Below are positions 1 to 64,000 of a stretch of 64,000 bases of DNA, in pieces. This stretch comes from Corynebacterium sp. CNCTC7651. Its GTDB lineage: Bacteria; Actinomycetota; Actinomycetes; Mycobacteriales; Mycobacteriaceae. Every line of letters begins with the position of its first letter. Position 1 is the first letter of the stretch. The notes beneath the pieces were generated by a model. That model did not search any database. It was given only the letters and a program-made list of their open reading frames with translations, and was not told where the DNA came from. The translations under genes were made by a program, and so were the position numbers. The stretch covers positions 1,674,001 to 1,738,000 of the forward strand of contig NZ_CP071246.1 of the NCBI RefSeq assembly GCF_021496665.1, given 5' to 3'.

Positions 1-694
1 CCATCGGGTCATCGTCGTAAAGCTTGCGTGCCCCGAAGCCGATGACGTTGCCGGCCGCGTCCTTGATGGGCCACAGCAGGCGGCGGCGGAATTTGTCGAT
101 GGGGCCGCGCTTGCCCATGGAGCTTAAGCCCGCGTCCTGGAGTTCCTGGACGTCGAAGCCTTTGCGCAGCAGGTGCTTCGTCAGCGTGTCCCAGCCGTCC
201 GGGGCGTAGCCGCACTCGAAGTGGTAGATGTGCTCGCGCGTGAAGCCGCGGTCCAGCAGGAAATTGCGGCCGCGCTCCGCCTGCGGGGTCTCCAGCTGCT
301 GGCGGTAGAACTCGTGTGCGGCCTTGTTGGCGGCGAGCAGGCGGGCGCGGGTGCCGGGCTTGACGTCGCGGGCGCCGGTGGAGCCGCCCTGGTAGTTGAT
401 GCGGTAGCCGATTTGGTCCGCGACCGCCTCGACCGCCTCGGGGAACGTGAGCTGCTCCATCTCCATGAGGAACGTGAACACGTCCCCGCCCTTGCCGGTG
501 GAGAAGCAGTGGAAATAGCCGCGCGCGGGGCGCACGTGGAACGAGGGCGTTTTTTCGTCCTTGAAGGGGCTCAAGCCCTTCAAGGAGTCGTGCCCGGCGG
601 GCTTGAGCTGCACGTATTCGCCGACAATGTCCTCGATTGCCGCGCGCTCGCGGATAGCCTCAATATCGCTATCCGGAATTCTTCCCCGTGCCAT
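1..694 (-). CDS. dnaG: DNA primase, N-terminal part (cut by window edge)
   Basis: Primase that makes RNA primers for the replication fork. The first 231 codons are visible, starting at the ATG at 694-692 and running off the left edge. The N-terminus (MARGRIPDSDIEAIRER, then IVGEYVQLKPAGHDSLKGLSPF) is typical of actinobacterial DnaG. The N-terminal domain should be a CHC2 zinc ribbon. Here the ligand positions read S (GLSPF), K (PFKDEK), C (FHCF) and T (FSTGKGG), so three of the four usual Cys/His ligands are missing while the fold signature (EKTPSFHV, GYFHCF, GKGGD) is kept. I recall the same substitution in other corynebacteria. It is transcribed divergently from the RNase gene. Confidence 0.95.
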   Translation of the reverse strand, partial: MARGRIPDSDIEAIRERAAIEDIVGEYVQLKPAGHDSLKGLSPFKDEKTPSFHVRPARGYFHCFSTGKGGDVFTFLMEMEQLTFPEAVEAVADQIGYRINYQGGSTGARDVKPGTRARLLAANKAAHEFYRQQLETPQAERGRNFLLDRGFTREHIYHFECGYAPDGWDTLTKHLLRKGFDVQELQDAGLSSMGKRGPIDKFRRRLLWPIKDAAGNVIGFGARKLYDDDPM

Positions 695-726
695 GCCCGC
701 AATCGTAGTGTGGGACAATCCGGGGC

Positions 727-1116
727 GTGAAAGCGCGCACTGGCATCCTGGCGGCGTGCCTGCTGCTGGGCGGGTGCGGGGTTCTGGAGGCGTCCGGGTC
801 GACACCGTCCGGGCTCCCCGCTTGCGGGCGCTTGCCGGCGGAAGCTACGAGCACCATCGAGTTAGTGAAGGCCGGCGGGCCGTTCCCCTACCCGGACAAC
901 GATGACAAGCGATTTGGCAACTACGAGGGCGTACTTCCGGACGAGAAATTGGGCTACTACCGCGAATACACCGTGGAAACGCCGGGGCTAGGCCACCGCG
1001 GGGCACGGCGCGTGATTACGGGCGGCGGTACTGACGGTGTGGTGGACAGCTGGTTCTACACGGCGGACCACTACGAATCGTTCTGCGAGATTGTTGGGGA
1101 GGGGCAACGTGGATAA
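727..1116 (+). CDS. Secreted guanyl-specific ribonuclease (RNase Sa/barnase family), lipoprotein
   Basis: Small extracellular RNase of 129 aa that cleaves RNA after G. The body aligns from memory with Streptomyces RNase Sa: LPAEATSTIELV, GGPFPYPDND, VLPDEKLGYYREYTV, HRGARRVITGG and ADHYESF. The catalytic Glu (about E80), Arg (about R91-R95) and His (about H115) are all present. The N-terminus is a signal peptide with a lipobox-like LGGC (Cys about 17), so the enzyme is probably membrane-anchored rather than freely secreted. The start is the GTG at 727. It overlaps the barstar gene by 8 bases, so toxin and inhibitor are co-translated. Catalytic family assignment is strong; the lipid anchor is inferred from the motif. 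Confidence 0.9.
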   Translation: MKARTGILAACLLLGGCGVLEASGSTPSGLPACGRLPAEATSTIELVKAGGPFPYPDNDDKRFGNYEGVLPDEKLGYYREYTVETPGLGHRGARRVITGGGTDGVVDSWFYTADHYESFCEIVGEGQRG

Positions 1117-1354
1117 ACGGAATCCGGTGCTGCTCACGGCGCCGGTGGATTCCGTCGCCGGGTTTGTTGCGGCGATTTCCCATGCGGTGTTCGGGGTGGA
1201 ACGCACGGCGCCGACGAATTTGGACGGGCTGGCTGACATGCTTCGAGAGGCCCGCGTGACCCACGTGGTCGCGTCCGACTGGCGGCTGGACCCGGAGGAG
1301 ACGCGCCGCGTGCAGCGGGTGCTGCTGGACAATGACGTGGTGTTGTACCGGTAG
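1109..1354 (+). CDS. Barstar-family ribonuclease inhibitor
   Basis: Cytoplasmic inhibitor of 81 aa that should bind and block the RNase encoded just upstream before export. The GTG at 1109 is chosen because GGGGAGG at 1097-1103 sits at the right distance and the gene then overlaps the RNase stop. The sequence shows the barstar pattern: an N-terminal LDG..L..L segment (TNLDGLADMLREA), a helix-rich middle and a C-terminal acidic/hydrophobic strand (VLLDNDVVLYR). A longer in-frame start at 1037 would lie well inside the RNase gene and is unlikely. It is slightly shorter than barstar (about 90 aa). Confidence 0.85.
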   Translation: MDKRNPVLLTAPVDSVAGFVAAISHAVFGVERTAPTNLDGLADMLREARVTHVVASDWRLDPEETRRVQRVLLDNDVVLYR

Positions 1355-1366
1355 GTGGGATTTGGG

Positions 1367-1377
1367 CGTCGATAAGC
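1367..1377 (+). repeat. Dispersed 11-mer CGTCGANAAGC (intergenic member; positions of all copies given)
   Basis: One of 27 exact copies read by eye. Plus orientation: 1367, 5948, 8888, 12203, 14575, 24048, 25510, 32372, 34581, 38312, 41142, 45787, 48517, 50191, 53796, 57421, 62680. Minus orientation (left ends): 24120, 33219, 39236, 40890, 45932, 47960, 49690, 50599, 54534, 58831. Four more have T at position 6: 13, 20472, 56761, 60097. The N is T in 12, A in 9, C in 3 and G in 3. Copies occur in several coding frames (Leu-Ile-Asp, Val-Glu-Lys, Ala-Ser-Ile-Ser, Cys-Phe-Ser-Thr) and between genes (1367, 58831), so codon bias alone does not explain them. Function unknown. Confidence 0.85.
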
Positions 1378-1380
1378 ACA

Positions 1381-5033: not shown

Positions 5034-6371
5034 CTAGCCGAGGAAGCCGGAGAGGCCGGCGGCCTTCTTTGCGGCGCGCTCGAGGCGGGATTCCGTCATG
5101 GATGCGATCTGGTCCACGATCACGCGCTCGCGCTCAAGGTCGGTCTCGGCGGCGATCCACCACTGCTGGTAGATCGTGTCCAGGGTGCCGGGGGCGCCGG
5201 CGAGCAAGTAGTCGTAGACGCGGTAGATGCGCTCACGCTGCCGGTCTTGGCGCGCGATGTGCGCGGGAAGGTCCATCACGTAGAGCACGGCGATGGTTTT
5301 GAGGAGGCGGACCTCGGCCTCAATGTCTGCGGGGATCACCAGGTTGCCGTGCATGCGGCCAAGTGCGGGGGCCTCCGAAGCGGGAGCAGCGAAGGTGGCG
5401 GGGGTGGCGGAGCGAGCATCGGCGGGCGCAATGGAGGCGGTGGTGCTGGCGTGCGCTTCGCGGGTGGCGGCGACCACCGCCCCGACGTAGCGGCCCACCA
5501 GTTCGGAGGTGAGCTGCTTCAGCTGGGCCCAAGAGGCCAGGCTGTAGTTGAACTCGCTGGCGGCCCCGATGGAGGGCATCGTGCGCAGCTCGTTGGCGGC
5601 GTCCAGGAGGGACTCGATGGTGCCGCCGAAGGCAGCGGCGCCTTTCTCCGCTAGCGCGGCGAGCTCCACTAGATCCCACAGCACCCGGAGGCTGATGCGG
5701 CCGGAAATGATGCCGTCTTCGACATCGTGGACGGAGTAGGCGATGTCGTCGGCGAAGTCCATCACTTGGGCCTCGATGGGCGGGCGGTCGTCGTCGTGGC
5801 CTGCGCGGATCCAGGCCAAAAGCTCCGCGTCTTCGTCGTAGGCGGAGTACTTCTTGTTCACGGTGCCGTCCGGGTTGGTGCGCGTGCGCGGGTACTTGCA
5901 CGCGGCATCCAGGGCGGCGCGGGTGAGGTTGAGGCCGTACGAATGAGCGTCGATAAGCACTTTCGGCTCGAGGCGGGTCAGGATGCGCAAGGTTTGCGCG
6001 TTGCCTTCGAAGCCGCAACCGGCGACGGCGTCGAGGGCGCGCTCGCCGTTGTGGCCGTAGGGCGGGTGGCCGATGTCGTGGGAGAGGCCGGCGAGCTCGC
6101 AGAGGTCCGGGTCGAGGCCCAGGCCCTCGCCGATGCTGCGCGCGATCTGTGCGACCTCGAGGGAGTGCGTGAGGCGCGTGCGCGGGGTGTCGCCGTCCTG
6201 GGGGCGCACGACCTGGGTTTTGTCGGCGAGGCGGCGCAGCGCGGCGGAGTGCAGGACGCGGGCCCGGTCGCGGGCGAAGGCCCCGCGGGTATCGGTGGCG
6301 GGCGCGAGCTGGGCACCCTTGGGGTGCTCGGGGGCGAGCCGGGCTACGTCGTCAGCACTGTAGGGATACAC
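5034..6371 (-). CDS. dgt: Deoxyguanosinetriphosphate triphosphohydrolase-like HD protein
   Basis: HD-domain enzyme of 445 aa that hydrolyses dNTPs to deoxynucleoside plus triphosphate and helps balance dNTP pools. The N-terminal region RDRARVLHSAALRRLADKTQV, then TRLTHSLEVAQIARSIG (first His) and LSHDIGHPPYGHNGE (HD pair and downstream His) are the metal-site motifs, with DFADDIAYSVHDVEDG further on (second Asp). The start is set at the GTG at 6371 (VYPYSADD). An ATG at 6431 would overlap the divergent TPM gene and adds an unconserved leader. In many actinobacteria dgt lies directly upstream of dnaG, consistent with the order here. Confidence 0.92.
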   Translation of the reverse strand: MYPYSADDVARLAPEHPKGAQLAPATDTRGAFARDRARVLHSAALRRLADKTQVVRPQDGDTPRTRLTHSLEVAQIARSIGEGLGLDPDLCELAGLSHDIGHPPYGHNGERALDAVAGCGFEGNAQTLRILTRLEPKVLIDAHSYGLNLTRAALDAACKYPRTRTNPDGTVNKKYSAYDEDAELLAWIRAGHDDDRPPIEAQVMDFADDIAYSVHDVEDGIISGRISLRVLWDLVELAALAEKGAAAFGGTIESLLDAANELRTMPSIGAASEFNYSLASWAQLKQLTSELVGRYVGAVVAATREAHASTTASIAPADARSATPATFAAPASEAPALGRMHGNLVIPADIEAEVRLLKTIAVLYVMDLPAHIARQDRQRERIYRVYDYLLAGAPGTLDTIYQQWWIAAETDLERERVIVDQIASMTESRLERAAKKAAGLSGFLG

Positions 6372-8487: not shown

Positions 8488-8918
8488 TACAGCGTTCGGC
8501 GGGTGGGGGCGTCGATCAGCGTCAGCGCCCAAGAGATGAAGGCGAGGTCCAGCGTGATCTCGCCTTCCGTGCCTTCTGCGCCTTCGGGCACCACCCGCAG
8601 GTTTCCGTTGGGCAGGCCGATGGTGGTTGCCACGAGGGCGCCGCGCTCATCGGTTACCGTGCGGCGCTTCTCCAGCAGGTTGCGGCCGGTGCGGCGGGCG
8701 AGGTAGCGGCGGCCGTCGCAGATCGCCTCGTAGCGCGACACGGTCACGCTGCGCTTCACCAGGCGGAACACGCGGCCGTCCGAAGCCACGGCGCGGACAT
8801 CCGCGGGGTTATCGGACACCACGCGCAGCGTCTCCGCGCCGAAGTTAAACGTCCCGGTGTGCTCGTTGTAGGAGGTGTCCCGGGGAGCGTCGACAAGCAC
8901 GGGCCCCTGCCAAATCAC
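8484..8918 (-). CDS. Hypothetical protein, beta-rich, paired with the next gene
   Basis: 144-aa soluble protein of unknown function. The start is the GTG at 8918, whose bases overlap the upstream gene's TGA (GTGA). It reads as alternating strands with turns (GTFNFGAETLRVVSDNP, GRVFRLVKRSVTVSRYEAICDGRRYLARRT, EGEITLDLAFISWALTLID). The pattern of a small repeated beta barrel and its resemblance in layout to its neighbour suggest a LURP1/tubby-like fold, but I cannot confirm this. No signal peptide. Confidence 0.7.
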   Translation of the reverse strand: MIWQGPVLVDAPRDTSYNEHTGTFNFGAETLRVVSDNPADVRAVASDGRVFRLVKRSVTVSRYEAICDGRRYLARRTGRNLLEKRRTVTDERGALVATTIGLPNGNLRVVPEGAEGTEGEITLDLAFISWALTLIDAPTRRTLY

Positions 8919-10973: not shown

Positions 10974-11411
10974 ATGCGCAACGCAGAGGCACTCACGCCT
11001 GCGGATGTCGCGCACGCCGCCAAGATCCTCAGCGCCCTGGATTCCGAGCTGCGCCTGCGCATTGTGCTCTTGCTTGCCGACGGGGAGCATGTCGTCCACC
11101 AGCTCGTCGATGCGCTGGGGAAATCCCAGCCCCTCATCTCCCAGCACCTGCGCGTGTTGAAGTCCGCCGGGCTCGTCGCGTCGCGGCGCGAGGGGCGCGA
11201 AGTGGTGTACACGCTGATCCAGCCCGCGGTGGTCGACGTCATCGAGCAGATTGCGGGGTTGGCTGCGGATGAGTTGAGTGTGCGTCGGCAAGCAAAAGTG
11301 CCCCCGGTACGCACCGGGTCCGGGGCGGCGATCATCTCCCCCACCACCGCCATCCGCCCGGACGAGGACCAGGGGCTCGCGCCGCAGACACCGCGGCCCC
11401 GGCACGATTAG
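10974..11411 (+). CDS. smtB: ArsR/SmtB-family metalloregulator upstream of zur
   Basis: 145-aa winged-helix repressor. The start ATG at 10974 follows AAGGGAG. The DNA-binding helix region is KSQPLISQHLRVLKSAGLVASRREGREVVYTL. The arsenic-type CxC pair is absent. His/Asp/Glu residues in the alpha-5 helix region (VVDVIEQIAGLAADE) could serve a zinc site. As with Rv2358-furB in mycobacteria, it lies immediately before zur, so a zinc-responsive role in regulating this pair is likely. The C-terminal 35 residues (Pro/Thr/Arg-rich) are probably disordered. Confidence 0.88.
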   Translation: MRNAEALTPADVAHAAKILSALDSELRLRIVLLLADGEHVVHQLVDALGKSQPLISQHLRVLKSAGLVASRREGREVVYTLIQPAVVDVIEQIAGLAADELSVRRQAKVPPVRTGSGAAIISPTTAIRPDEDQGLAPQTPRPRHD

Positions 11412-11903: not shown

Positions 11904-12698
11904 CTATTTCGCGAACTTGTCCACGGCCCCGCCGAAACGGCGGTCGCGCTTGGCGTATTCCAGCACGGCGTCGAACATGTGCTGCTGGGTGAAATCCGGG
12001 AACAGCGTGTCCTGGTACACCATTTCCGCGTATGCGGACTGCCAGAGCAGGAAGTTGGAGGTGCGCTTCTCGCCCGAGGGCCGCAGGAACAGGTCCACGT
12101 CCGGCATGTCCGGGCGGTAGAGGTAGCGGCTGATCGTCTGCTCCGTCACGTCCTCGGGGCGGATGAGGCCGGCGTTGGCATCGGCGACGAGTTTCCGGGA
12201 AGCGTCGATAAGCTCGGCCCTGCCGCCGTAGTTGATGCACATCGCGAGGGTGACCCCGGTGTTGTCTTTGGTGAGTGCTTCGGCTTCCTCGAGCTCGCGC
12301 AGGACGCTGCGCCACAGGCGCGGGCGACGGCCGGCCCAGACGATGCGGACGTTCTTCTCGTGCAGCTCATCGCGGTGGCGGCGCAGCACGTCGCGGGAGA
12401 AGCCCATGAGGAAGCGGACCTCCGAGTGGGAGCGGCGCCAGTTTTCCGTGGAGAATGCGTAGGCGGAGAGCCATTCCACCCCGCCGAGCGCGATGCAGGC
12501 ATCGATGCAGTCCATGAGCACCGCCTCGCCGCGGCGGTGGCCCTCCGTGCGCGGCAGGCCGCGTTCCTGCGCCCAGCGGCCGTTGCCGTCCATAACCAGC
12601 GCGATGTGGCGGGGGATGAATTCCGGATCGATCTGCGGAGGCTGCGGTTGTTGCGGATGCTGCGGTTGCGCGGGAGGCTGGGCGGGTGGCTGGGTCAT
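11904..12698 (-). CDS. uppS: Isoprenyl transferase (cis-prenyl diphosphate synthase)
   Basis: 264-aa enzyme that condenses IPP to make the C50/C55 polyprenyl carrier for cell-wall and arabinogalactan synthesis. Motifs: [17 protein letters not shown] (catalytic Asp and diphosphate grip), [32 protein letters not shown] and [27 protein letters not shown]. The first 20 residues are a Pro/Gln-rich extension ([20 protein letters not shown]) not found in most family members. recO starts the transcript ahead of it and the spacing is 7 bases. Confidence 0.96.
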
Positions 12699-16861: not shown

Positions 16862-16935
16862 GCTTCGACGATACAAGCCGGGTCGGAGGTGACAGTTCGA
16901 GGTCCGGGCCAACCCTCCGCGTCTCGCCCCTCTGC

Positions 16936-17096: not shown

Positions 17097-17215
17097 TGGG
17101 CGACCGAGCAACTGGAAAGGTCCAGGTCAGAACGGGGTGCACCGGGGGCCGGTAGGTCGAGAGGCCGGGCTTTCCCGGGCGGCCGGGGACCAGATAGCGA
17201 CGCGGAGGGCGGGCA

Positions 17216-17243: not shown

Positions 17244-17251
17244 GGAAACCC

Positions 17252-48149: not shown

Positions 48150-49051
48150 CCGCCCAGGCCCCGCAGATCACCGTGGTCGGCTCCATTAATGCCGACCTCA
48201 CCGTCAACGTCGCCCGCCACCCTTCCCCCGGCGAGACGCTCTTGGGCACCGGCGGCGGGGTCACGCCCGGCGGCAAAGGCGCGAACCAGGCTGTGGCAGC
48301 CGCGCGCCTCGGGGCGCGGGTGGCGCTGGTGGGCGCCGTCGGCCGGGATGCGAACGCCGCGCCCGCGACCGCGCTACTCCGCGAGGCCGGGGTGGACATG
48401 ACTCACGTCGAAGAGGTGGACGGCGTGACCGGCCTTGCGGTGATTACGGTTGATCGCGCCGGGGAGAACACCATCATTGTCGTGCCGGGGGCGAACGAGG
48501 TGGTGGATCAAGTGTTCGTCGAGAAGCATCGTGCCCCTGTGGAGGCCGCGGAGCTCGTGCTGCTCCAGGGCGAGATCCCCGCGGATGGGTTCGCGCAGGC
48601 GGTTGAGTTGGCGCGCGGGCGAGTTGTGGTGAATCTGGCGCCCGTGGTGGATGTGCCGCGGGAAGCCCTTTTGGCTGCGGATCCGCTCATGGCCAACGAG
48701 CACGAGGCTGGGCTGATCCTGGCGCAGCTCGGGCACGATTCCGCAGGTGAGCCGCCTCAGCTTGCAGCGCGTCTGGTGGCTGCCGGCTTTACGACGGTCG
48801 TGCTCACACTCGGCGCCGAAGGTGCCCTTGTTGCCGATGCTTCGGGTGTCCGATCGGTGCCTGCCCCGCGCGTGGACGCGGTAGACACCGTCGGCGCAGG
48901 CGACGCGTTTGCGGGCGCGTTCTGCTGGCGCATCGTTGCAGGTGACAGCCTCGATGAGGCCGCAGCCTTCGCGGCGCGCGTGGGCGCGTTTTCGGTCACC
49001 CGGCCCGGCGCGCAGCCGTCCTACCCGCTAGCGGGTGACGTAGAACATTAG
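48146..49051 (+). CDS. rbsK: Ribokinase-like PfkB sugar kinase
   Basis: 301-aa PfkB kinase. Motifs: VGSINADLTVNVARHPSPGETLLG, TPGGKGANQAVAAARLGA, VDTVGAGDAFAGAFCWRI (catalytic Asp). It is closest in pattern to ribokinase but could serve a nucleoside. The ATGA overlap with the ABC ATPase gene ties it to that importer, which suggests the imported solute contains a sugar, although no Rbs-type transporter is present. Confidence 0.88.
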   Translation: MTAQAPQITVVGSINADLTVNVARHPSPGETLLGTGGGVTPGGKGANQAVAAARLGARVALVGAVGRDANAAPATALLREAGVDMTHVEEVDGVTGLAVITVDRAGENTIIVVPGANEVVDQVFVEKHRAPVEAAELVLLQGEIPADGFAQAVELARGRVVVNLAPVVDVPREALLAADPLMANEHEAGLILAQLGHDSAGEPPQLAARLVAAGFTTVVLTLGAEGALVADASGVRSVPAPRVDAVDTVGAGDAFAGAFCWRIVAGDSLDEAAAFAARVGAFSVTRPGAQPSYPLAGDVEH

Positions 49052-51623: not shown

Positions 51624-52785
51624 TGCGCTGCCAGGACCCGCCCGGGCCCTGCCAATCCAACGGGTTGCCGGCCGGCGCGGCCGTGCGGCGCAGCACTTCA
51701 ACGCGCTGCTCCCAGGAAAGCTCCGGGAAGCGCGCGGCCAGCAGCACCGGGGCAGCCTGCGGGACGTCCATGGCGGCGTCGGGGACGTAGACCGTCGGCA
51801 AGCCGTAGCCCATCCAGCCCTCCATGCGGCGCACGGCTTCAGGCGTGGTCACGTACGGCGTGTCTGTGGCCACCAGCTCGCCGATGGTCTTGCCGGTGCG
51901 CCACTCAATCTCCGCGCGCAGCTCCGCACCTGCCTGGTTCAGGGCATCGCGCATCTTCGGGTCGTTCAAACGGTCCGCAGCCGCCGCGTAGCCGGACATG
52001 CGCCCGCCGATCACGTCCAGCGGGTAGTGCACGCCAAGGACAATGCGGGAGTTGCCAGCCTCCGCGCCGCGGTACAACAGCTGCGGGGCGAGCTCCGGCA
52101 CCATGTACGCCAGCAGCGTGGTGGTCATGGTCGCCTGGTTGGTGTGCCCGGACGGGAACGCGGGCGAGGTGAGGTACAGGTCCCCGGTTTCCGGGGTGTT
52201 GTAGCGGTTGATGCGCTCCGGCGCCGCGATGTGCGGGCGCGGGTAGTTGAAAATGCGCTTCTCAATCAGCGTGGAGTTCGCAACGCCGCCGGTCCGCGCC
52301 AGGTAGCCGTTGTCCAGCAGGTAGGACGTCTTGGGCAAACGCCCCTCACGCAGCGCCGCGCGGAACGCGTCCCCGAACTCCGCGCCCAAGGCGGGAGAGA
52401 GCGCCGTGAGCAGCCCGCCCGAGGACGCCACCGCGTCTACCTGCGCCGTGGCAATCTGCTCCGGCGTGGCGGTGTTGTTGATGCGCACCACCGTGTCCAT
52501 GTTCGCCGCCATCGTCTGCGGCTGGGTGTCCCTCACCTGCGGGAACAGTCGGTTCACCTCGGCGTAGATGCCGTACTTGTACGGCGAGATGTCAGAGATG
52601 TAGCCGGTCAGATACGCCGGCGAGAACGGCCGAGGCACTGGCCCGTCCGGGTGCTGCACAATCGGCGCGCCGATGGAAGACCCGGTGACCTCACTGCGCA
52701 GCTGCGGCAGGGTCACCGCACCAGCGGCGGGGGCACACACAAGGGAGGCGGCGGTACACAGGGCACCAAGCTTGACGACGTTCAT
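51556..52785 (-). CDS. PAP2-type acid phosphatase, exported
   Basis: Vanadium-haloperoxidase/PAP2 fold, 410 aa, with signal peptide (NVVKLGALCTAASLVCAPAAGAVTL). All three motifs are present: KRIFNYPRP, PSGHTNQ, and SRIVLGVHYPLD. The long C-terminal part after residue 290 is less conserved. ATG 52785 is used; GTG 52791 is possible. Its 3' end runs 68 bases antisense into the CPBP gene. Probable phosphomonoesterase acting outside the membrane. Confidence 0.88.
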   Translation of the reverse strand: MNVVKLGALCTAASLVCAPAAGAVTLPQLRSEVTGSSIGAPIVQHPDGPVPRPFSPAYLTGYISDISPYKYGIYAEVNRLFPQVRDTQPQTMAANMDTVVRINNTATPEQIATAQVDAVASSGGLLTALSPALGAEFGDAFRAALREGRLPKTSYLLDNGYLARTGGVANSTLIEKRIFNYPRPHIAAPERINRYNTPETGDLYLTSPAFPSGHTNQATMTTTLLAYMVPELAPQLLYRGAEAGNSRIVLGVHYPLDVIGGRMSGYAAAADRLNDPKMRDALNQAGAELRAEIEWRTGKTIGELVATDTPYVTTPEAVRRMEGWMGYGLPTVYVPDAAMDVPQAAPVLLAARFPELSWEQRVEVLRRTAAPAGNPLDWQGPGGSWQRINLVAATAANVAVGADGALVIR

Positions 52786-52815: not shown

Positions 52816-54042
52816 TCAGTCCAGCATCTCGAACAGGCCCTTCGCCACCTCCCGGCCGTGGACCCAAATGCCGTCGTGGAACCATTCGTCGTGGCTCCAC
52901 AACTTGAGGTTGCCAATGCGCGAAGCGGAGTCCGCCGTCAGCTCGTAGGGGATGAAGAGGTCCGGCTTGAACAGCAACGCCGCGGTAGGCACCTCGTTGC
53001 CGGAGAGGTCCCGTGCCTGGGCGGTCAGCGTGTCCATGTGCTGCACCTCATCCACCGCCCCGTAGAAGGGCTTAAGCGCCGGGTCCTCCTCGAAGTGGGT
53101 GGCAAAGAAGTGGTTGCCCAAGAGGGTCAGGTCCGCGAACTCCTCCCGGTAGATCCGCTCCGCGGACCAGCGCGTGGGGTGGCCGGGGCGCGCCATGACG
53201 GATTCGTGCACCACAGCCCACAGCGGCATGGTCTCCAAAGAGATGATGCTGCCCACCTGCGCCAGGAAGTCCCCGCGCAAGCGCTTCTCGCCCCGGTAGG
53301 TGGTAAACGGCATCTCCATCAGGGTGGCCAGGGCACCGAAGTCGCCCTCCTCCCCCAACAGCACCCCGACCATGCGGAAGCGTGTGGAGGAAAGCCGCTC
53401 CCCCGTCGGCATCCGCACGTCGTGGTTTTCCAGGTGGTCCGCCACCTCTTCCACGCGCGCCTTGATCCACGGCACCGCCGCGAAAAGCTCCTCCTGCCGC
53501 GCGCGAAGCAACGCGAAGGTCAACCGGTTGAACGCGTCCACGTCCATCTCCGGCTCCGGCACCGCACCGACCAGGTGCACGCGGCGCAACCCCGAGGGGA
53601 AGTAGGACAGGTAGGACCCCGCGCACGCCGCGCCGAAGGAATTACCCAGCAGGTCCCACTGCTCCACGCCCAGGTACTCGCGCATCGCCTCCGCATCCGC
53701 CGCCACGTCCGGCGGGCGCAGGTGGGCTAGAAAGTGAGCGTCGATACGCTCGGGTGTCGTGCGGTCGATCTTTGTGGAGCGGCCGGTGCCCCGTTCGTCG
53801 ATAAGCAGGACGCGGTAGCGTTTCAGTGCCTCCGGGATCCAGTCCATCAGCATGCGCGGGCCGGGTTTACCGGGGCCGCCCTGGAAGTAGACCAGGTAGG
53901 GCAGGCTCGCGTCGGTGTACAGCTCACGGGCGAAGACCGTGATCTCGCCGCGCGCGGGGTCCGCACGGTCGATGGGCACGGTGATTTCGTGCTCGCGCTG
54001 CGTCACGCCAGGGAGATAGACGGTGGAGTTCGCGGGCGCCAC
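52816..54042 (-). CDS. Alpha/beta hydrolase, proline iminopeptidase-like
   Basis: 408 aa. Oxyanion region YFQGGPGKPGPR near 72, nucleophile elbow LLGNSFGAACAGSYL near 150, and the C-terminal His region NLKLWSHDEWFHDGIWVHGRE. This resembles S33 tripeptidyl/prolyl aminopeptidases of actinobacteria. GTG 54042 is chosen because GGAGG lies five bases ahead; the longer frame overlaps the divergent gene. No signal peptide. Confidence 0.85.
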   Translation of the reverse strand: MAPANSTVYLPGVTQREHEITVPIDRADPARGEITVFARELYTDASLPYLVYFQGGPGKPGPRMLMDWIPEALKRYRVLLIDERGTGRSTKIDRTTPERIDAHFLAHLRPPDVAADAEAMREYLGVEQWDLLGNSFGAACAGSYLSYFPSGLRRVHLVGAVPEPEMDVDAFNRLTFALLRARQEELFAAVPWIKARVEEVADHLENHDVRMPTGERLSSTRFRMVGVLLGEEGDFGALATLMEMPFTTYRGEKRLRGDFLAQVGSIISLETMPLWAVVHESVMARPGHPTRWSAERIYREEFADLTLLGNHFFATHFEEDPALKPFYGAVDEVQHMDTLTAQARDLSGNEVPTAALLFKPDLFIPYELTADSASRIGNLKLWSHDEWFHDGIWVHGREVAKGLFEMLD

Positions 54043-54057: not shown

Positions 54058-55947
54058 ATGCAGTTGCGCTCTTACAAAGAGGTCGGCCACGATTTTCCGG
54101 TGCCCGACACGTTCGAGGCACCGATTCTACCGGAGTGGCGCCTGGCCACGTTCTCGCTGGTTCTGCCCATTCCCGCGGCGGCGGGCCTTGGGGATGAGCC
54201 CTTCGACTTCGCCGCCCACGGCTGGGCGTACGGGCGCGACAAGGGCGTGCGCATTGTGGAAAACCCGGCGTGGGATGCGGAGCGGCAGGTGTGGCGCAAG
54301 CCGGACGTGCGGCGCAACTACTACGGCCACCCGATCGTGGAGGGCGGCAAGCCCTATTACAACGACGCCCGCATCCGCTTCGTCGACCCCATCGACACCT
54401 CCGTTGGTGCCCGTTCCATCGACGTGGACATCGCCTCCTTCGAAGGCGCCGCCGCCGGCATCGAGGAGTTCGCGCACGAGGACCGCGGCAAGCAGCGCAT
54501 CCTCGAGGACGGCGGCGTGAGGCAGGAGCTTTCGCTTATCGACGCCGGCTGGGACGCCAACATCTTCGCCCACCACCTGATCTTCGAACCCGTGCGCAAC
54601 GAAACGTTTTTCTACCTGGTGAATTATGACGAGCAGCTGCCCTGGGAGGACCAAGTCCGCGGCGAGCGAGACAGCCACGGGCCCGCCACCTTGCGCCTGC
54701 TCTCCGCCGAGGTGATGCAGTTCCACGACCTGAACCTGGCCGCGACGCACGTGACCAGCGATTTTTTGATCCTCAACGTGGCGGCGGAGAACATTTCTTC
54801 CGCCACGCTGGGGTTCTTGAGCTCCGCGCTGCGGCGCCCGCGCAACAGCTCCCAGTTCTACAAAGTGGATGAGGAGTACAAGGAAAGCCCGCCGCAGCTG
54901 CACGTGTTGACCAAGTTTGTGAACCTGGCGGTGGCCCAGATCGATGCCGCGTTGGGGCGGGAGCAGTCGATGGTGGTGTCGTCTGAAGGCAAGCTGATCG
55001 CCACGGCGGAGGCACCCGGCCCCACTGGCACCTTCGCCCTGCCCGCGCCGCAGCGGGTGGCCATGGCTATTCCGAACCCGGCTCGGCCGCCGGAAGACCA
55101 CCAGAAGACGCTGAGCGAGGGCAATAACGGCTCAGTGCCGGAGGACATCGGCGGGCCCCTAGTGCTGCAAACCCGCAACTCCAAGTGGAAGTGGCACGAG
55201 CAGTGGGCGTGGCAGATTCTGGAGGGCGCGGATTCCTACCCGGAGCTGGTGCCGTACCAGACGCCGGAGGGCTTGGAGCACCTGCTGGCCGCGCAGTTGT
55301 CCTCGTGGACCGTCATGACCTCGGACGAGGGCGTGGGCATGGTGCGCACCAAGTCCGCCAGCCGCGAGGGCATGCGCTACTGGTCCATGGCCAACACCCG
55401 GTTCGTGGACTTGGTGATGTTGCAGATGCGGGCGCAGGCTGGCGAGACGCACCTGCGCAAGACGCTGCAGGTTGCGGGCGAGCGCTCTGCGGCCTCCATC
55501 GGCGAGGCCTCCCACGCCGAGCTGCGCGGGGACCTGGAGCGGATGGAAAAGCTGCAGCTGGATCACATTGAGATCCGCGACAAGCTGTGGTTCCGCACCG
55601 TGCCGGGCCGCGACATTGACACCCGCGTGCTGCAGGGGTTGCAGCGCGCCACCGGGTTCAACCAGCTGCGGGAGGATTTCGACTCCAAGGTGCGCTCCCG
55701 CCAGGACGTGATCCGCAACCGCTTCGAGCAGCTCTCCGGCGAGATCGCGGAGGAGGAGTCGAAGCGCGCGGAGGCAATGAACCTGGTCCTAGGCTTCGTC
55801 GCCGCCGCAATCGGTGCCCCGGACTGGGCAGACGCGGCGGGCGTAACCACACTCGGCGGGATGCTCGGCCTGGGCCTGATCATCTTCGTGGCCATGTTCG
55901 CCGTGGTGTGGATTATGCAGGCTGGCTTTAGGTGGCTTCGTCGGTAG
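54058..55947 (+). CDS. Large unknown protein with C-terminal membrane anchor
   Basis: 629 aa, unknown function. Hydrophilic for 570 residues, with a Trp-rich mid segment ([26 protein letters not shown]), then a long heptad-like helix (about 480-575, [46 protein letters not shown]) and two membrane stretches at the end ([36 protein letters not shown]). CorA-like topology is possible but the GMN motif is not seen. It begins 15 bases divergent from the hydrolase and ends in a 20-base overlap with lepA. Confidence 0.8.
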
Positions 55948-57787
55948 ATAGCGCCGCCACGAATGCTTCCTGCGGCACCGTCACGGAGCCGATGGATTTC
56001 ATGCGCTTCTTGCCGGCCTTCTGCTTCTCCAGAAGCTTGCGCTTACGGGAAATGTCGCCGCCGTAGCACTTGGACAGCACGTCCTTGCGCAGGGCGCGGA
56101 TGTTCTCGCGGGCGATGATCTTGGAGCCGATCGCGGCCTGCACCGGCACCTCGAACTGCTGGCGCGGGATGAGCTCCTTGAGCTTCTTGGTCATCTTGTT
56201 GCCGTACCACTGCGCGGAATCCTTGTGCACGATGGCGGAGAACGCGTCCACCGGCTCGCCCTGGAGGAGGATGTCCACCTTCACCAGGTCACCCAGCTGC
56301 TCGCCCGCGTCCTCGTAGTTCAGGGAGGCGTAGCCCTTGGTGCGGGATTTCAGCATGTCGAAGAAGTCGAAGATGATCTCGCCCAACGGCATGATGTAGC
56401 GCAGCTCAACGCGGTCCTCGGAGAGGTACTCCATGTTCTTCATGGTGCCGCGCTTGGACTGGCACAGCTCCATCGTCGTGCCCACGAATTCCTGCGGGAC
56501 GATGATGGTCATGTTCACAATCGGCTCGTAGACTTCCTGGATCTTGCCGCCCGGCCAGTCGGACGGGTTGTGCACGATCTGCTCGGTGCCGTCTTCGCGG
56601 ATCACGCGGTAGGTCACGCTCGGCGCGGTGGAAATCAGGTCCAGGTCGAATTCGCGCTCCAGTCGGTCGCGGGTGATCTCCATGTGCAGCAGGCCCAAGA
56701 AGCCGCAGCGGAACCCGAAGCCCAAGGCGACCGATGTCTCGGGTTCCCAGGTCAAGGAAGCGTCGTTAAGCTGGAGCTTCTCAAGCGACTCGCGCAGGTC
56801 CGGGAAGTCCTCCTGGCTCACCGGGAAGAGGCCGGAGTACACCATGGGCTTGACTTCCTCGAAGCCCTCGAGCGGCTCCTCGGCGCCCTTGGAGGCCCAC
56901 GTCACCGTGTCGCCCACGCGGGTTTCGCGCACGTCCTTCACGCCGGTGATCAGGTAGCCCACCTCGCCGGGGCCCAAGCCCTTGGTCTTCTTCATGGTGG
57001 GCGAGACCACGCCGATCTCCAGGATTTCCAGGCGGGTGCCGGTGTTCATCATCTGCACCTGCTGGTTGGGCGTGAGCTTGCCGTCCACCATGCGCACGTA
57101 GGTGACTACGCCGCGGTAGGTGTCGTAGACCGAGTCGAAGATCAGGGCGCGGGCCGGCGCGTCCTCCGGGTGCTCCGTTGTCGGGGCGGGGATGAGTTCC
57201 ACCACCTTGTCCAGAAGCTCCGGCACGCCCTGGCCGGTCTTGCCGGACACGCGCAACACGTCCTCGGTCTCGCAGCCGATGATGTTGGCGATTTCCAGCG
57301 CGTACTTCTCCGGGTCCGCGGCCGGCAGGTCGATCTTGTTCAGCACCGGGATGATCTCAAGATCATTCTCCATGGCCATGTACAGGTTGGCCAGGGTCTG
57401 GGCTTCGATGCCCTGAGCGGCGTCGACAAGCAGGATCGCGCCCTCGCACGCGTCGAGGGAGCGGGAGACCTCGTAGGAGAAGTCCACGTGGCCCGGGGTG
57501 TCAATCATCTGGAGGACAAACTCCTCCCCCGCCAGCTCGCCCGTTTGCACCGTCCACGGCAGGCGCACGTTCTGGGCCTTGATGGTGATGCCGCGCTCGC
57601 GCTCAATGTCCATGTTGTCCAGGTACTGGTCGCGCATGTCGCGCGCGTCAACCACGTTGGACAGCTGCAGAATGCGGTCGGCCAAGGTGGATTTACCGTG
57701 GTCGATGTGCGCGATAATGCAGAAGTTACGGATGCGACTGGGATCCGTGAACGTCTCCTCCGCAAAGTTCTTCTTTTGAGCAGCCAT
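55928..57787 (-). CDS. lepA: Elongation factor 4
   Basis: 619-aa ribosome back-translocase GTPase. G1 [14 protein letters not shown]2 RERGITI, G3 DTPGHVDF, G4 NKID, then domains II, III, V and the LepA C-terminal domain ([29 protein letters not shown], here [20 protein letters not shown]). ATG 57787 is used; an upstream in-frame start adds three residues. Length is normal. Confidence 0.97.
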
Positions 57788-58810: not shown

Positions 58811-58852
58811 TCCCGCCCCGAGGAGCTTTTGCTTTTCGACGGCGGGATTTTT
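58811..58852 (+). terminator. Intrinsic terminator after rpsT
   Basis: TCCCGCC at 58811-58817 pairs with GGCGGGA at 58841-58847, followed by a T run at 58848-58852. The hairpin loop contains a minus-oriented copy of the dispersed 11-mer (58831-58841), whose last bases overlap the stem. Confidence 0.75.
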
Positions 58853-59884: not shown

Positions 59885-60811
59885 TTAAGCCAGCTCAGCG
59901 ATCCGGCGCACCGCGTCCTCGATGGCGAACTCCGGGTCGCCGCCCTGACCCTTGACCTCAGCATCCAGGTCGGCGACGATGATCACCGCCTCCGTCACCG
60001 CGGCCGCCGTCCATTGCCGCGCCACCTGCATGGTCTTTTTGGCCACGTAGGGGTGCATACCCAGTTGGCGGGCGAGTTGGTCGGGGTTTCCGCGGACGTC
60101 GTAAAGCTTGGCAATGTCGCCCACCTTGTGCGCGAGGGCCGCGGCGATGGCCACGGGGGACGTGCCCAGTTGCAGCGCGCGGCGGGTGGATGCCAGCGCG
60201 CGGTCGGCGCGGCCCAGGACGGCCTGGTCCGCGATGTCGAAGCCGGCGACCTCCGCCACGCCGGTGTAGTACTCGCGCACGGACGCCACCGTGATCTCCC
60301 CGTCCGTGTCCGCGACCAGCTGGCTCACGGCGGAGGCGAGCTCCCGCAGGTCAGAGCCGACTGACTCCAGCAGCGCGGACACGACATCCGGGGTGGGGCG
60401 CACGCCGTGGTTGCGGAACTCCGCGCTGACCCACGCGTGGCGGTCGCGGTCCTTGAGGCTCTCCGCGTTGTGCACCTCCGCGATCTTCTGGAACTTGGCC
60501 ACGTAGGATTTCTGCCGCCCGCCGCCGGAGTGCTTGATTACCAGCGTCATGCCCGGCGCGGGATCCACGCAGGCAGCCAGCAGCGTCTCGGTCGGCTCCT
60601 TGCCGGCGAGCTCGGTCTTGTCCACCACCACCACGCGATCCTCAGCGAAGAGGGACGGGCTGGTGGCCATCGCGATCTCCCCCTCCGTGACCTCGGAGGC
60701 GCGCAGCGTGGTCACCTCGGCGCCGGGGCCGGCCTGGGCGATGATCGCTTTGGTGGCGCGTTCGGCGAGAAATTCATCGTCGCCAAGCACGAGGTGGACG
60801 GGGTTGAGCAT
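59885..60811 (-). CDS. holA: DNA polymerase III delta subunit
   Basis: 308-aa clamp-loader subunit that opens the beta clamp. Opening NPVHLVLGDDEFLAERATKAII and RVVVVDKTELAGKEPTE, then YVAKFQKIAEVHNAESL and VRPTPDVVSALLESVGSDLRELASAVSQLV fit HolA. ATG 60811 is used; the ATG at 60820 is equally in frame. Immediately after comEC. Confidence 0.94.
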   Translation of the reverse strand: MLNPVHLVLGDDEFLAERATKAIIAQAGPGAEVTTLRASEVTEGEIAMATSPSLFAEDRVVVVDKTELAGKEPTETLLAACVDPAPGMTLVIKHSGGGRQKSYVAKFQKIAEVHNAESLKDRDRHAWVSAEFRNHGVRPTPDVVSALLESVGSDLRELASAVSQLVADTDGEITVASVREYYTGVAEVAGFDIADQAVLGRADRALASTRRALQLGTSPVAIAAALAHKVGDIAKLYDVRGNPDQLARQLGMHPYVAKKTMQVARQWTAAAVTEAVIIVADLDAEVKGQGGDPEFAIEDAVRRIAELA

Positions 60812-60821: not shown

Positions 60822-62414
60822 CTACGGCCCGGCGCGGTTGGGGAAGATCACGTCGATGCCGCCCTGCGTGCGCACGGGGCGGCGCGGCGGCCGGCCCTGC
60901 TCCAGCACCACCACCAGTTCGGTGCCGGGCGGGACGGGTTCCACGTCTGCTTTCGTGGCCACGACGTGCACCGTGAGCCCCTCGGCGTACGCGGGCGCGG
61001 GCGGCGGGGGCGGGGTGCGCAGGCTGGCGAAGGCAATGGCCGTCGCCGTTGCGGCTGCCGTGAGCCGCGGCCGCTTGCCGACGATCCCCGCAAGCACCCA
61101 CCCGTACGCCACCATCACCACCACCGGCGTCGCCGCAATGGTGGCCAGCGGTAGCGCAGAGCCGCGCAGGGCCACTTCGTGCACCCACCACGTCATCGGT
61201 TCGATGACGGTGAGCAGGGGTGTCTCGAGGCCACCGGGGACAAGCGATGCGGCGGCCGCTGCGAGCCCCAGCACCGTGACCGGGGCGGTCACCGGCGCGA
61301 CCAGCACGTTCGCCGCAACAGAGACGAGCGAGACCTGGCCGGACATGAGCGCCACGATGGGCATGGTGACCACGTCTGCGGCGATGGCGACGGCAAGCGC
61401 GCGGTTCACAATGTCGGGCCAGCCGGTCATGGCCAGGGCGCGGTGGATGAGGGGACTGATGGCCACAATCCCCACCGTCGCCGCGACTGAGAGCGCGAAG
61501 CCGTAGTGCGCGGCCAGGTCCGTATCCACCAGCAAGAGGCCGATGGTGGCCAGACACAGCGCGTGAATCGGTTCGGACCGGGTGGATGAGCACACCGCCA
61601 CCAGGCCGACCAAGCCCATGACGGACGCGCGAAGCACGCTCGGCTCCGGGCCGACCAGACCCGCGAATCCTAAGAGCGCTACCGCCGCCGATAGCAGACG
61701 GACCCGCAAACCCAGGCGCAGCAGCGTGGCCGCGACCACGGCCGCGGTGGTCACGATGGCCACGTTGGAACCGGACACGGCGGACAGGTGCGACAACCCG
61801 GTGTCGATGTACATCTGCTGCTCCGCCGCACTTTGCGCGGTGGTATCCCCCAGCACCATGCCGGGGATGAGGCCGGTCGAGGCAGGCCCAACGTGGTGTG
61901 CGACCGCCGCGCCGAACGTCTCGCGCACATGCTGGGCAAATGCGGCGTACCCGGTCGGCGGCGCGTTCAAGACCACCTCGCCGCTGAGCACGTACGGGTT
62001 CACGCCCGGCATGCTGGATTCGCCAAGGCGGCCGGTGCAGGTGACGTGTGCGCCGGGCACAATGCCGTCGTCCAGCGAGGTGCTGAACACCGCAAGCGTG
62101 GAGGGGTGCCCCGGCAGGGTGATGCGCGTGAGCCAGGAACCGGTGGTAAGCTGCTTCGGCTGGCCGCTGACGGTGCCGACGATAGGCTCTGCGAAGTCCC
62201 ACGCGGCGGCGATGCGGATGCGCACGGTGGCGACGACGGTTGCCGCCGCACCCAGCCCAGCGACCAGAACGGCCTGGCCCCATTCGCGCCAGCAGGCGCA
62301 CCCCACCGCTAACGCGAGGACCACCAACGCCGCGGCCGCGGGGCCGACCAGCACACACACCAGGCTGGCCGCCCACACCGCCAGTGCCGCCGGAACCAAG
62401 CGCAGCTCGGTCAC
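60822..62414 (-). CDS. comEC: ComEC/Rec2-type DNA uptake channel protein (membrane part only)
   Basis: 530 aa. About ten membrane segments carry the Competence domain (GDTTAQSAAEQQMYIDTGLSHLSAVSGSNVAIV, PSVLRASVMGLVGL). The usual C-terminal metallo-beta-lactamase domain is missing; only about 50 residues follow the last segment (ending VVLEQGRPPRRPVRTQGG). This short form is common in corynebacteria as I recall. GTG start overlaps comEA by 4 bases. Confidence 0.92.
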   Translation of the reverse strand: MTELRLVPAALAVWAASLVCVLVGPAAAALVVLALAVGCACWREWGQAVLVAGLGAAATVVATVRIRIAAAWDFAEPIVGTVSGQPKQLTTGSWLTRITLPGHPSTLAVFSTSLDDGIVPGAHVTCTGRLGESSMPGVNPYVLSGEVVLNAPPTGYAAFAQHVRETFGAAVAHHVGPASTGLIPGMVLGDTTAQSAAEQQMYIDTGLSHLSAVSGSNVAIVTTAAVVAATLLRLGLRVRLLSAAVALLGFAGLVGPEPSVLRASVMGLVGLVAVCSSTRSEPIHALCLATIGLLLVDTDLAAHYGFALSVAATVGIVAISPLIHRALAMTGWPDIVNRALAVAIAADVVTMPIVALMSGQVSLVSVAANVLVAPVTAPVTVLGLAAAAASLVPGGLETPLLTVIEPMTWWVHEVALRGSALPLATIAATPVVVMVAYGWVLAGIVGKRPRLTAAATATAIAFASLRTPPPPPAPAYAEGLTVHVVATKADVEPVPPGTELVVVLEQGRPPRRPVRTQGGIDVIFPNRAGP

Positions 62415-63058
62415 AGGCAGACCAGGTCTTTCAGCGCGTCAAACTTCGCCGGCCCAATGCCCTTGACGTCCATCAGGCCCTCCAGGGTGGCAAAGGGGCC
62501 GTTGGCCTCGCGGTGGGAGACGATCGCGTGGGCGGTGGCATCCCCCACTCCGGGCAGCGCAGTGAGCTCGGCGGCGCTGGCCTGGTTCACGGAGATCAGC
62601 CCGCCGGCTGCGGCACCGGGGGAAGCAGCGGCTTGGGGCGGAGGGGCGGCACCGATGGCTTGGACGTGGATCTGTTGACCGTCGACAAGCACCTGCGCCA
62701 AGTTGAGCGCGATGGTGTCCGCGTGGGGGAACGGCTGGGCGTGGTCCAGCGCGTCCGCAACGCGCGCTCCCTGCTCGAGGGTGATCAGCCCAGGGTGGGC
62801 AACCTCCCCCACAACCGCAACCACTACCTGTTCCGGCACGGCGGTTGCGGCGGCGACTTGGCCCCACTCGGGCTCCTGCGCGGGTTGAGACGGCGGACGG
62901 GTAAACGCCCAGCCGCCCACAAGTGCGAGGACGACAGCCGAGGCAGCGACAGCTTGTTTCGGCTCCACGCGCACGCGCGGGGGCGGGTAGTTGACGGGGA
63001 GGATGTCCTCCTCCCCAGTTGGGCGGGTGAGTTCTTTGAGTCGTTCGGCAGCATTCAT
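62411..63058 (-). CDS. comEA: ComEA DNA-binding protein
   Basis: 215 aa. Short cytoplasmic N-terminus, membrane segment near 37-52 (VAASAVVLALVGGWAF), a SLBB domain (VVVAVVGEVAHPGLITLEQGARVADAL), and two helix-hairpin-helix motifs (ISVNQASAAELTALPGVGDATAHAIVSHR; LEGLMDVKGIGPAKFDALKDL). It should bind incoming dsDNA outside the membrane and hand it to ComEC. Its start is at the ATG at 63058. Confidence 0.95.
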   Translation of the reverse strand: MNAAERLKELTRPTGEEDILPVNYPPPRVRVEPKQAVAASAVVLALVGGWAFTRPPSQPAQEPEWGQVAAATAVPEQVVVAVVGEVAHPGLITLEQGARVADALDHAQPFPHADTIALNLAQVLVDGQQIHVQAIGAAPPPQAAASPGAAAGGLISVNQASAAELTALPGVGDATAHAIVSHREANGPFATLEGLMDVKGIGPAKFDALKDLVCL

Positions 63059-63109
63059 GCGCTCAGGCTACGAAACATCTAACCGAAGCGAAAGCACCCC
63101 TCCCGCAAG

Positions 63110-63147
63110 CTGTGGATAACTCGGCCCGCAACGCGAGTTATCCACAG
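63110..63147. promoter_or_regulatory. Two perfect DnaA boxes as an inverted repeat
   Basis: TGTGGATAA at 63111-63119 and TTATCCACA at 63138-63146 are both exact DnaA-box matches and sit inside a perfect 14-base inverted repeat (63110-63123 with 63134-63147) around a 10-base spacer. It lies between comEA and the cutinase gene, both leftward. It could be a DnaA titration or regulatory site, or a hairpin ending the cutinase transcript (no U tract follows). Confidence 0.7.
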
Positions 63148-63157
63148 GCGCCGCGAG

Positions 63158-64000
63158 TTAGCGGTAGCGAACCTGGTCTACGAAGCGGCCGAAAGAGTCA
63201 GACACCTGGTTGTCCCACTGGGACGGCCAGAGGTAGTAACGGCCGTGGTTGCCGCCGTTGAACTGGGCGGAGCCCGCGAGCGTCTGCACCGACAGGTCGC
63301 ACACACCGTCCAGCGGCAAGCAGTAATTCACGCGGTTGGACGTGCCCGCGGCGGTGCGGGTGTTAAACGGCAGGATGCCCAGGATGCCGCCGGCACCGCC
63401 GCCAGCCACGCCGACGGTGGACCAATCGCCCGGCGCGGTGTTCGGGTTGCCGAAGTACACCACGCCCGCGAGCTGGCCGCGGCGCGCAAGCTCACGCTCG
63501 TGCTCCAGCAGGATCATCGCGCCCTGCGAGTAGCCGGTGAGGATGTAGCTGGGGCGGCAGCCGGTCGCGGCCTCATAATCGTTGATCTGCTGCATCACGC
63601 CGACGCGGCCGAGCTTCACGGAATCCGTGAACTCCGTGGCCGCTCGGCGGGCGGTGCGAAGGGCGGGCACCGAGTACTCCAGCGCCAGCAGCACACCCTG
63701 GGTGATAGTGGCGGGGATGGAGACCTCCGGCGCGTTGTACTCCGGGTAGATCGCCGGGTAGTACTTCGGCTCCAGGCCGATGACCTCGACGTCCTTCATC
63801 AGGGACGCACCGCCGTGGGTGGCGCGGTAGCGGTTTTCCGCGTGGCGGAAGAACGCACGCATGGTCTGGCCCTCCCAGCCGTTGGACACCCACGGTGCCT
63901 GCGGGGAGTAGCTGGTGCGGTAGATCTGGTCGTTCTGGCCGGAGCCGCGGGCAGCGATCACGGCCACGGCAGGGCAGCGCTCGCGGGCTTCAGCCTGAGG
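63158..64000 (-). CDS. Cutinase-family hydrolase, 3' part (cut by window edge)
   Basis: The last 280 codons of a secreted serine esterase. The Ser is in YILTGYSQGAMILLEHE (GYSQG), Asp/His near GVCDLSVQT and NGGNHGRY. The visible start of the fragment, EARERCPAVAVIAARGSGQNDQ, is the usual first strand of the domain, so only the signal and leader are missing. In this group such enzymes act on lipids or mycolates outside the cell. Confidence 0.9.
   Translation of the reverse strand, partial: PQAEARERCPAVAVIAARGSGQNDQIYRTSYSPQAPWVSNGWEGQTMRAFFRHAENRYRATHGGASLMKDVEVIGLEPKYYPAIYPEYNAPEVSIPATITQGVLLALEYSVPALRTARRAATEFTDSVKLGRVGVMQQINDYEAATGCRPSYILTGYSQGAMILLEHERELARRGQLAGVVYFGNPNTAPGDWSTVGVAGGGAGGILGILPFNTRTAAGTSNRVNYCLPLDGVCDLSVQTLAGSAQFNGGNHGRYYLWPSQWDNQVSDSFGRFVDQVRYR

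Follow-up and report, generated by a model that had tools for sequence, protein, structure and literature searches.

The stretch analysed here, referred to as the window, comprises 64,000 nucleotides of the Corynebacterium sp. CNCTC7651 genome (contig NZ_CP071246.1, positions 1,674,001 to 1,738,000). It carries lepA, a gene which we take to be holA, and the candidate DNA-import genes comEC and comEA. Dispersed through it is an 11-base word, CGTCGANAAGC, of which an exact pattern count found 28 copies, 17 on the plus strand and 11 on the minus strand. The original prediction, made from the letters of the window, had the plus strand right and missed one minus-strand copy (27 in total, 10 minus). 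It was also correct in that the leading C is common to all copies (28 of 28 occurrences of GTCGANAAGC) and in that chance would yield fewer than 0.5 copies, as dinucleotide shuffles of the window gave a mean of 0.22, with 2 as the highest of 100 shuffles. The variants had been undercounted: instead of four more copies with T at position 6 there are 10, plus 8 with G. The core word, CGTCGDNAAGC (D = A, G or T), amounts to 46 copies in the window and is flanked on either side by preferred bases. These copies, with coordinates from an exact pattern search of both strands, and the two candidate machinery genes are listed below.

13..23, plus: CGTCGTAAAGC copy
1367..1377, plus: CGTCGATAAGC copy, outside called genes
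5948..5958, plus: CGTCGATAAGC copy
8888..8898, plus: CGTCGACAAGC copy, outside called genes
11072..11082, minus: CGTCGGCAAGC copy, outside called genes
11283..11293, plus: CGTCGGCAAGC copy, outside called genes
12203..12213, plus: CGTCGATAAGC copy
14575..14585, plus: CGTCGAAAAGC copy
15631..15641, minus: CGTCGTAAAGC copy
16450..16460, plus: CGTCGGCAAGC copy
20472..20482, plus: CGTCGTAAAGC copy
21597..21607, minus: CGTCGAAAAGC copy
21644..21654, plus: CGTCGGTAAGC copy
24048..24058, plus: CGTCGATAAGC copy
24120..24130, minus: CGTCGAAAAGC copy
25510..25520, plus: CGTCGAGAAGC copy
29891..29901, minus: CGTCGGTAAGC copy
32372..32382, plus: CGTCGAAAAGC copy
33219..33229, minus: CGTCGATAAGC copy
34581..34591, plus: CGTCGAAAAGC copy
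36611..36621, minus: CGTCGTGAAGC copy
38312..38322, plus: CGTCGAAAAGC copy
39236..39246, minus: CGTCGAAAAGC copy
40890..40900, minus: CGTCGATAAGC copy
41142..41152, plus: CGTCGAAAAGC copy
43499..43509, minus: CGTCGTTAAGC copy
44180..44190, plus: CGTCGGAAAGC copy
45787..45797, plus: CGTCGATAAGC copy
45932..45942, minus: CGTCGATAAGC copy
47543..47553, minus: CGTCGTCAAGC copy
47960..47970, minus: CGTCGATAAGC copy
48517..48527, plus: CGTCGAGAAGC copy
48786..48796, minus: CGTCGTAAAGC copy
49690..49700, minus: CGTCGATAAGC copy
50191..50201, plus: CGTCGAAAAGC copy
50599..50609, minus: CGTCGAGAAGC copy
51793..51803, plus: CGTCGGCAAGC copy
52770..52780, minus: CGTCGTCAAGC copy
53796..53806, plus: CGTCGATAAGC copy
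54534..54544, minus: CGTCGATAAGC copy
56761..56771, plus: CGTCGTTAAGC copy, inside lepA
57421..57431, plus: CGTCGACAAGC copy, inside lepA
58831..58841, minus: CGTCGAAAAGC copy
60097..60107, plus: CGTCGTAAAGC copy, inside the presumed holA
61073..61083, minus: CGTCGGCAAGC copy, inside comEC
62680..62690, plus: CGTCGACAAGC copy, inside comEA
60822..62414, minus: comEC, DNA-uptake channel protein, candidate machinery (Pfam PF03772 Competence, E 9e-42)
62411..63058, minus: comEA, DNA-binding protein with SLBB and helix-hairpin-helix, candidate machinery (Pfam PF12836, E 5e-20; PF10531 SLBB, 28.1 bits, cut-off 27)

In the whole genome of 2,453,109 bp, CGTCGANAAGC occurs 734 times (375 forward, 359 reverse), as compared to 19 times (9 forward, 10 reverse) for the pattern read backwards in the same genome, which served as control for the word counts throughout. 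A 464-kb sample, consisting of the window and 20 stretches of 20 kb spread across the genome, contained CGTCGDNAAGC 260 times against 5.8 expected under an order-3 Markov model. Position 6 was A in 144 cases, T in 69 and G in 47, with C rare at 12, and in the same sample and model position 9 tolerated C too (69 against 8.1 expected). Variants one letter off were modestly in excess at position 3 (53 vs 32) and position 8 (45 vs 26). Strong, genome-wide over-representation of a short word of about 9-12 nt, a characteristic of the DNA uptake sequences (DUS) and uptake signal sequences (USS) of other bacteria, is therefore present here. The original prediction had proposed such a count, naming values near the control or an enrichment restricted to the window as outcomes that would speak against it; the counts lie far above the controls and the enrichment extends over the genome.

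Next to composition, the coding context was considered. Genes were called with a simple custom gene caller, and synonymous-codon shuffling was used as control. Inside the called genes of the sample, 222 copies of CGTCGDNAAGC were observed as compared to 15.7 after shuffling, a 14-fold excess seen with each base at position 6 (A 130 vs 9.1, T 54 vs 4.2, G 38 vs 2.4). Of the 144 A-form copies, 79 ran antisense and 48 sense to a called gene, and 17 lay outside any called gene. The claim of different coding frames thus stands as far as several frames, both strands and non-genic copies are concerned, but one frame dominates, with 76 of the 144 lying antisense to Leu(CTT)-NTC-Asp. Likewise, copies outside genes do exist in the window, and they number 4 of 46 instead of the two proposed. 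Occurrence in both orientations, in coding as well as non-coding DNA, is again what is seen in DUS and USS.

The word does not end sharply. Taking the base directly before it as position 0, the upstream flanks of 143 sites are depleted of C and rich in A or G at -1; further upstream, G is favoured at -4 and at -10, A at both -5 and -6, and T or G at -8 and -9. Downstream of the same sites, A is favoured and C avoided at +12, A is raised from +13 to +15 and C from +17 to +20. Part of the upstream G, recurring with a period of three, is due to the dominant codon frame. Antisense, sense and intergenic copies have the main preferences (-1, -4, -5/-6, +12) in common. In nine species sets (17 to 257 sites each), C was the most depleted base at -1 in seven, at 0 in eight and at +12 in seven, and the favoured base at -1 varied between clades. 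Judged by its flanks, the element has the appearance of a site that would be read by a protein across roughly three turns of DNA. Because the excess is 14-fold over codon shuffling and the main flank preferences are shared across frames and outside genes, the signal is one at the level of DNA; a protein motif or codon artefact is ruled out, as the original prediction had argued for the protein motif.

A second form of the word was found in Corynebacterium sp. KPL1814, Corynebacterium sp. MSK130 and an uncultured relative, a clade that presumably lies near C. accolens. Here, the orthologous sites read CATCG, whereas the sister C. tuberculostearicum clade has CGTCG. In 200 kb each, C. tuberculostearicum had 56 copies of the CGTCG form and 11 of the CATCG form, as opposed to 3 and 87, respectively, in KPL1814. 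Within genes, observed counts compared to codon-shuffled ones were 48 vs 3.2 (CGTCG) and 10 vs 4.0 (CATCG) for C. tuberculostearicum; for KPL1814 they were 1 vs 2.2 (CGTCG) and 80 vs 6.2 (CATCG). On the level of whole genomes, CATCGDNAAGC reached 858 copies in MSK130, 857 in KPL1814 and 889 in genome G006 of the same genus, as compared to between 16 and 186 in each of the 56 further genomes searched, while CGTCGDNAAGC was near background in MSK130 (57, control 41) and KPL1814 (67, control 47).

The switch can be followed site by site. Among the C. tuberculostearicum sites that aligned without gaps (33), the partner has G changed to A at position 2 in 26 cases, and where the partner keeps the rest of the word (24 sites) this A is found in 22. 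Compared to matched Asp codons with the same neighbours, A at position 2 was more frequent when starting from C. tuberculostearicum (22/25 vs 74/125, p 0.006), and the reverse direction gave 27/36 vs 81/244 (p 4e-6). A simpler control, in which 64 of 249 other, non-motif CGTCG sites were changed (p 5e-9), exaggerates the contrast, because Asp GAC/GAT codons often change between the two clades; the matched contrast is weaker and still significant. Dialects that follow phylogeny, as in DUS and USS, are thus seen in one clear case, the CATCG clade and its sister. A concerted change of one position at hundreds of dispersed sites points to one reader, acting in trans, that would have altered its specificity. 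As a separate observation, CATCGDNAAGC is moderately raised genome-wide (186, control 17) in C. sp. HMSC04H06 (loci L057 and L233-L235), outside the KPL1814/MSK130 clade.

To describe the spread of the word, LepA was used. Among the best 80 of 193 LepA relatives, the one closest to the LepA of the window is that of C. stercoris (98% identity), and from these 80 loci 50 named Corynebacterium genomes were picked. They contain 19 to 1853 copies of CGTCGDNAAGC, at least 8 times the reversed control in 36 of the 50; another 12 are poor in the word and the remaining 2 belong to the CATCG clade. In 25 genomes of the genus, the present one included, CGTCGANAAGC ranged from 7 to 985 copies, with at least 121 in 18 of them. 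By comparison, it did not exceed 1.8 times the reversed control in any of 16 genomes representing other families of the order. On a LepA tree of 81 rows, word density, as taken from the window and from loci no longer than 22 kb, was high in 46, middle in 9 and low in 26. These states are clustered, yet require several changes. The word is also carried by loci with only 51% GC. A count over four loci (64 vs 1.5) is no independent evidence, the loci being orthologous. Altogether, the pattern is real and genome-wide in most of the sampled genus, with at least two dialects.

Two side observations concern further forms. C. parakroppenstedtii (L225-L232, L107) shows a looser CGTCGDNAA lacking the fixed GC tail, 203 times in 182 kb as a raw count without expectation, which could be a third dialect or one in decay. 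In genomes G009 and G014 (L113-L115, L119-L121), words around GGTGGCGTCG(A) are mildly over-represented, with 14 GGTGGCGTCG vs 1.0 expected in 60 kb of G014, an excess that may reflect codon usage or another dialect.

Strand use was analysed with the origin assumed near the contig start and the terminus half-way, a placement for which the weak GC skew in the sample gives no confirmation. On this assumption, 120 copies were leading and 140 lagging (p 0.24), which is neither the replichore strand bias of Chi nor the origin-to-terminus polarity of FtsK-orienting polar sequences (KOPS); the latter had been disfavoured from the beginning. Spacing was near random (coefficient of variation 0.99), and close pairs below 150 bp in any orientation numbered 13 vs 22 expected at random, so that the frequent inverted terminator pairs that are common in DUS and USS, although not defining, are not seen. 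Neither a polar guide nor paired terminators are thus indicated. One Corynebacterium phage contained a single copy in 42 kb and another none in 40 kb, with the motif status of their hosts not measured.

Regarding possible machinery, Pfam matches (PF03772, PF12836, PF10531) bear out the earlier naming of comEC and comEA in the window. ComEC was found in 50/50, the Tad ATPase in 51/51 and DprA in 12/12 genomes; in C. wankanglinii and C. haemomassiliense, comEC is located away from lepA, both genomes having ComEC. The combination of pilus-type machinery and ComEC that accompanies DUS and USS is thus present, but motif-poor genomes have these genes too. Loss of competence genes as the cause of motif loss is ruled out, with ComEC and the Tad ATPase present in the tested genomes. 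In motif-poor C. otitidis (G085) and C. ulceribovis (G084), the ComEC match contains a stop, where a sequencing error is possible. The Tad cluster of the present genome encodes a DUF4244 Flp-like pilin and two more small pilin-like open reading frames (ORFs), labelled TadE-like and TadF-like from position and resemblance. The TadE-like ORF has no Pfam match, and the TadF-like one matches PF13400 below the cut-off (20.2 vs 22.3 bits). In motif-free C. jeikeium and C. dentalis (Tad clusters L165, L166), the TadE-like pilin is strongly diverged and lacks a segment of the type AR.HAIGV.Y.PPRG that is common in motif-rich species, C. amycolatum being an exception.

Based on these genomic comparisons, we consider it probable that the word is a self-DNA uptake signal of Corynebacterium with dialects, like the Neisseria DUS or the Haemophilus USS. 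The observations from which this proposal starts are the abundance of the word, selection at the DNA level, flank preferences, the dialect switch, the spread over both strands and the presence of import genes; competence, a receptor, a preference in uptake and a drive that spreads the tag would have to be added. In detail, fragments with the word would be bound by a DNA receptor at the cell surface that is associated with the Tad/Flp pilus or with ComEA; ComEC would import one strand, and DprA and RecA would recombine it. If tagged fragments were preferentially taken up, the tag would be kept and spread at permissive places of the genome. Dialects would arise when the specificity of the receptor shifts and sites drift to the new word, CGTCG in most species and CATCG in the KPL1814/MSK130 clade. 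Such an uptake signal could account at once for the dispersed copies, the flanks, the dialect, the missing polarity and the near lack of copies in phages, whereas a Chi-like or nucleoid site would explain only some of these. The original prediction had listed an uptake sequence first, with nucleoid, Chi-like and modification sites as equal fits. Uptake is now favoured and the others are no longer equal to it, because of the dialect switch, the flanks, the spread in both orientations without replichore bias, the near absence from phages and the competence and Tad genes. On the genomic features tested, the word appears to work like a DUS or USS, optional inverted pairs excepted.

Several findings weigh against an uptake signal. 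Firstly, the word is weak or absent in 12 of the 50 named genomes (ratio 0.4 to 3.7 to the reversed control), all 12 of which retain ComEC and the Tad ATPase, and in 10 of the 12 no replacement word of similar strength was found (20-34 kb each; 3 of these also in 82-122 kb). Conversely, C. urinipleomorphum (G087) is motif-rich despite a ComEC match split in two, possibly by sequencing error. Secondly, none of Flp, TadE-like, TadF-like, ComEA and ComEC tracks the word cleanly enough to be a clear receptor. Partial rank correlations with motif enrichment given LepA divergence, on 46 to 51 genomes each, were weak for the TadE-like protein (0.32), ComEA (0.32) and ComEC (0.19) and at most 0.12 for HolA, Flp and the TadF-like protein. 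There are clear exceptions, too: the TadE-like protein is very different in motif-rich C. amycolatum and C. vitaeruminis, but ordinary in motif-poor C. spheniscorum. Thirdly, a balance of mutation and decay is expected to leave relics at all positions, so that the lack of excess of one-letter-off variants at positions 1, 2, 4, 5, 10 and 11 (61 vs about 69 expected in the sample) is unfavourable; it would need frequent recombination repair or strong selection. Density in DNA common to both dialect clades is not clearly higher either (58/87 and 33/56 sites aligned vs 64% of bases). Finally, no report of natural transformation in Corynebacterium was among the papers listed by searches of the open-licence literature. 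Because competence genes also occur in motif-poor genomes, we infer the uptake function and do not claim it. The counter-evidence on competence reports, motif-poor genomes, receptor tracking, relics and shared DNA is the reason why our confidence remains only somewhat on the positive side.

Among the alternatives, a Chi-like recombination signal, regulating the actinobacterial end-resection helicase-nuclease (AdnAB-type) after double-strand breaks and enriched as a repair aid, survives best, although we regard it as unlikely. Like Chi sites, which are read by RecBCD or AddAB, the word is dispersed on both strands, asymmetric and over-represented; it is nearly absent from the two phages, and a change of the enzyme could produce a dialect. 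However, Chi sites are 5-8 bp long, which is exceeded by the ten fixed or restricted bases and the flank preferences, and the replichore counts show no bias, with the origin position assumed. None of 8 genomes yielded a match to RecC, the RecBCD subunit that reads Chi; AddB and AdnAB were not searched for. Chi via RecBCD is disfavoured by the missing RecC and strand bias, and it is the AdnAB signal that stays as rival.

A binding site of a nucleoid-organising or segregation protein would agree with the near-random spacing, with the close pairs being fewer than random and with a word found in most of the sampled genus. It is quite unlikely in our judgement: the word is non-palindromic and shows no polarity between chromosome halves, it is weak or absent in the 12 genomes mentioned, and about 1000 weak sites would all have to be under selection and change together in the CATCG clade. 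A modification or restriction target could be asymmetric and partly degenerate as the word is, but restriction targets are as a rule avoided in genomes; the 14-fold enrichment and flank preferences unlike those expected of a methylase site make it very improbable. A by-product of codon or protein composition, to which the one frame antisense to Leu-x-Asp holding more than half of the copies might point, is refuted by the codon shuffling and by the main flank preferences shared with other-frame and non-genic copies, leaving it a negligible chance.

Apart from the word, two adjacent ORFs on the minus strand of the window (16043-18103) share a near-identical start (...QSAVAYGHVGNSAAVF...), likely a tandem duplication of what we take to be a pyridoxal-kinase-type gene.

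If the word is indeed an uptake signal, motif-rich Corynebacterium species would be naturally competent and recognise their own DNA, with dialect barriers, e.g. between the C. tuberculostearicum and KPL1814/MSK130 clades. Natural transformation would be predicted in a genus with industrial and skin-commensal species, and a tag added to DNA would be a simple aid for genetic work. Coevolution of receptor and word could be tested between sister clades that differ at one position.

No description of CGTCGANAAGC or of any Corynebacterium uptake word was among the papers listed by searches of the open-licence literature. At least one of six spellings of the word occurs in 69 papers, of which the 15 listed appear unrelated and do not contain CGTCGANAAGC. 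The accessible part of a motif-discovery paper (PMC5217627) reports only CRISPR-related pairs for three named Corynebacterium species. According to the same part, close inverted pairs, often terminators, occur with the Haemophilus USS; they are not enriched in the present genome. The Pasteurellaceae USS, in the excerpt of a 2025 paper (PMC12616744), resembles the present case in having a core word with an extended consensus and two dialects, while the word itself is unrelated. That excerpt also states that Neisseriaceae and Pasteurellaceae are the only families known to discriminate DNA by specific words. A comparable gene set is found in the actinobacterium Micrococcus luteus, where, by the available portions of PMC6370729 and PMC6667448, Flp/Tad pili, ComEA and ComEC serve transformation; the term ‘uptake sequence’ is absent from PMC6667448. 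Transformation is proven in M. luteus, whereas in Corynebacterium it would be a prediction from the genes.

Uptake words with dialects are also documented in the Neisseriaceae. As described in the sections of PMC3630211 at hand, DUS, read by the minor pilin ComP, are short words with hundreds to thousands of copies and lineage dialects down to single bases, as is the case here. Unlike DUS, the Corynebacterium word occurs in a different phylum and cell envelope and with different letters, and the pilus genes found are of Tad/Flp type, a ComP relative not having been searched for; receptor and uptake preference are putative. On balance we lean towards an uptake-signal system with dialects that arose independently in Actinobacteria with Tad pilus genes and would be the first beyond the two Gram-negative families Neisseriaceae and Pasteurellaceae. 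Such a third case would show that self-DNA tagging has re-evolved with different pili and a different envelope.

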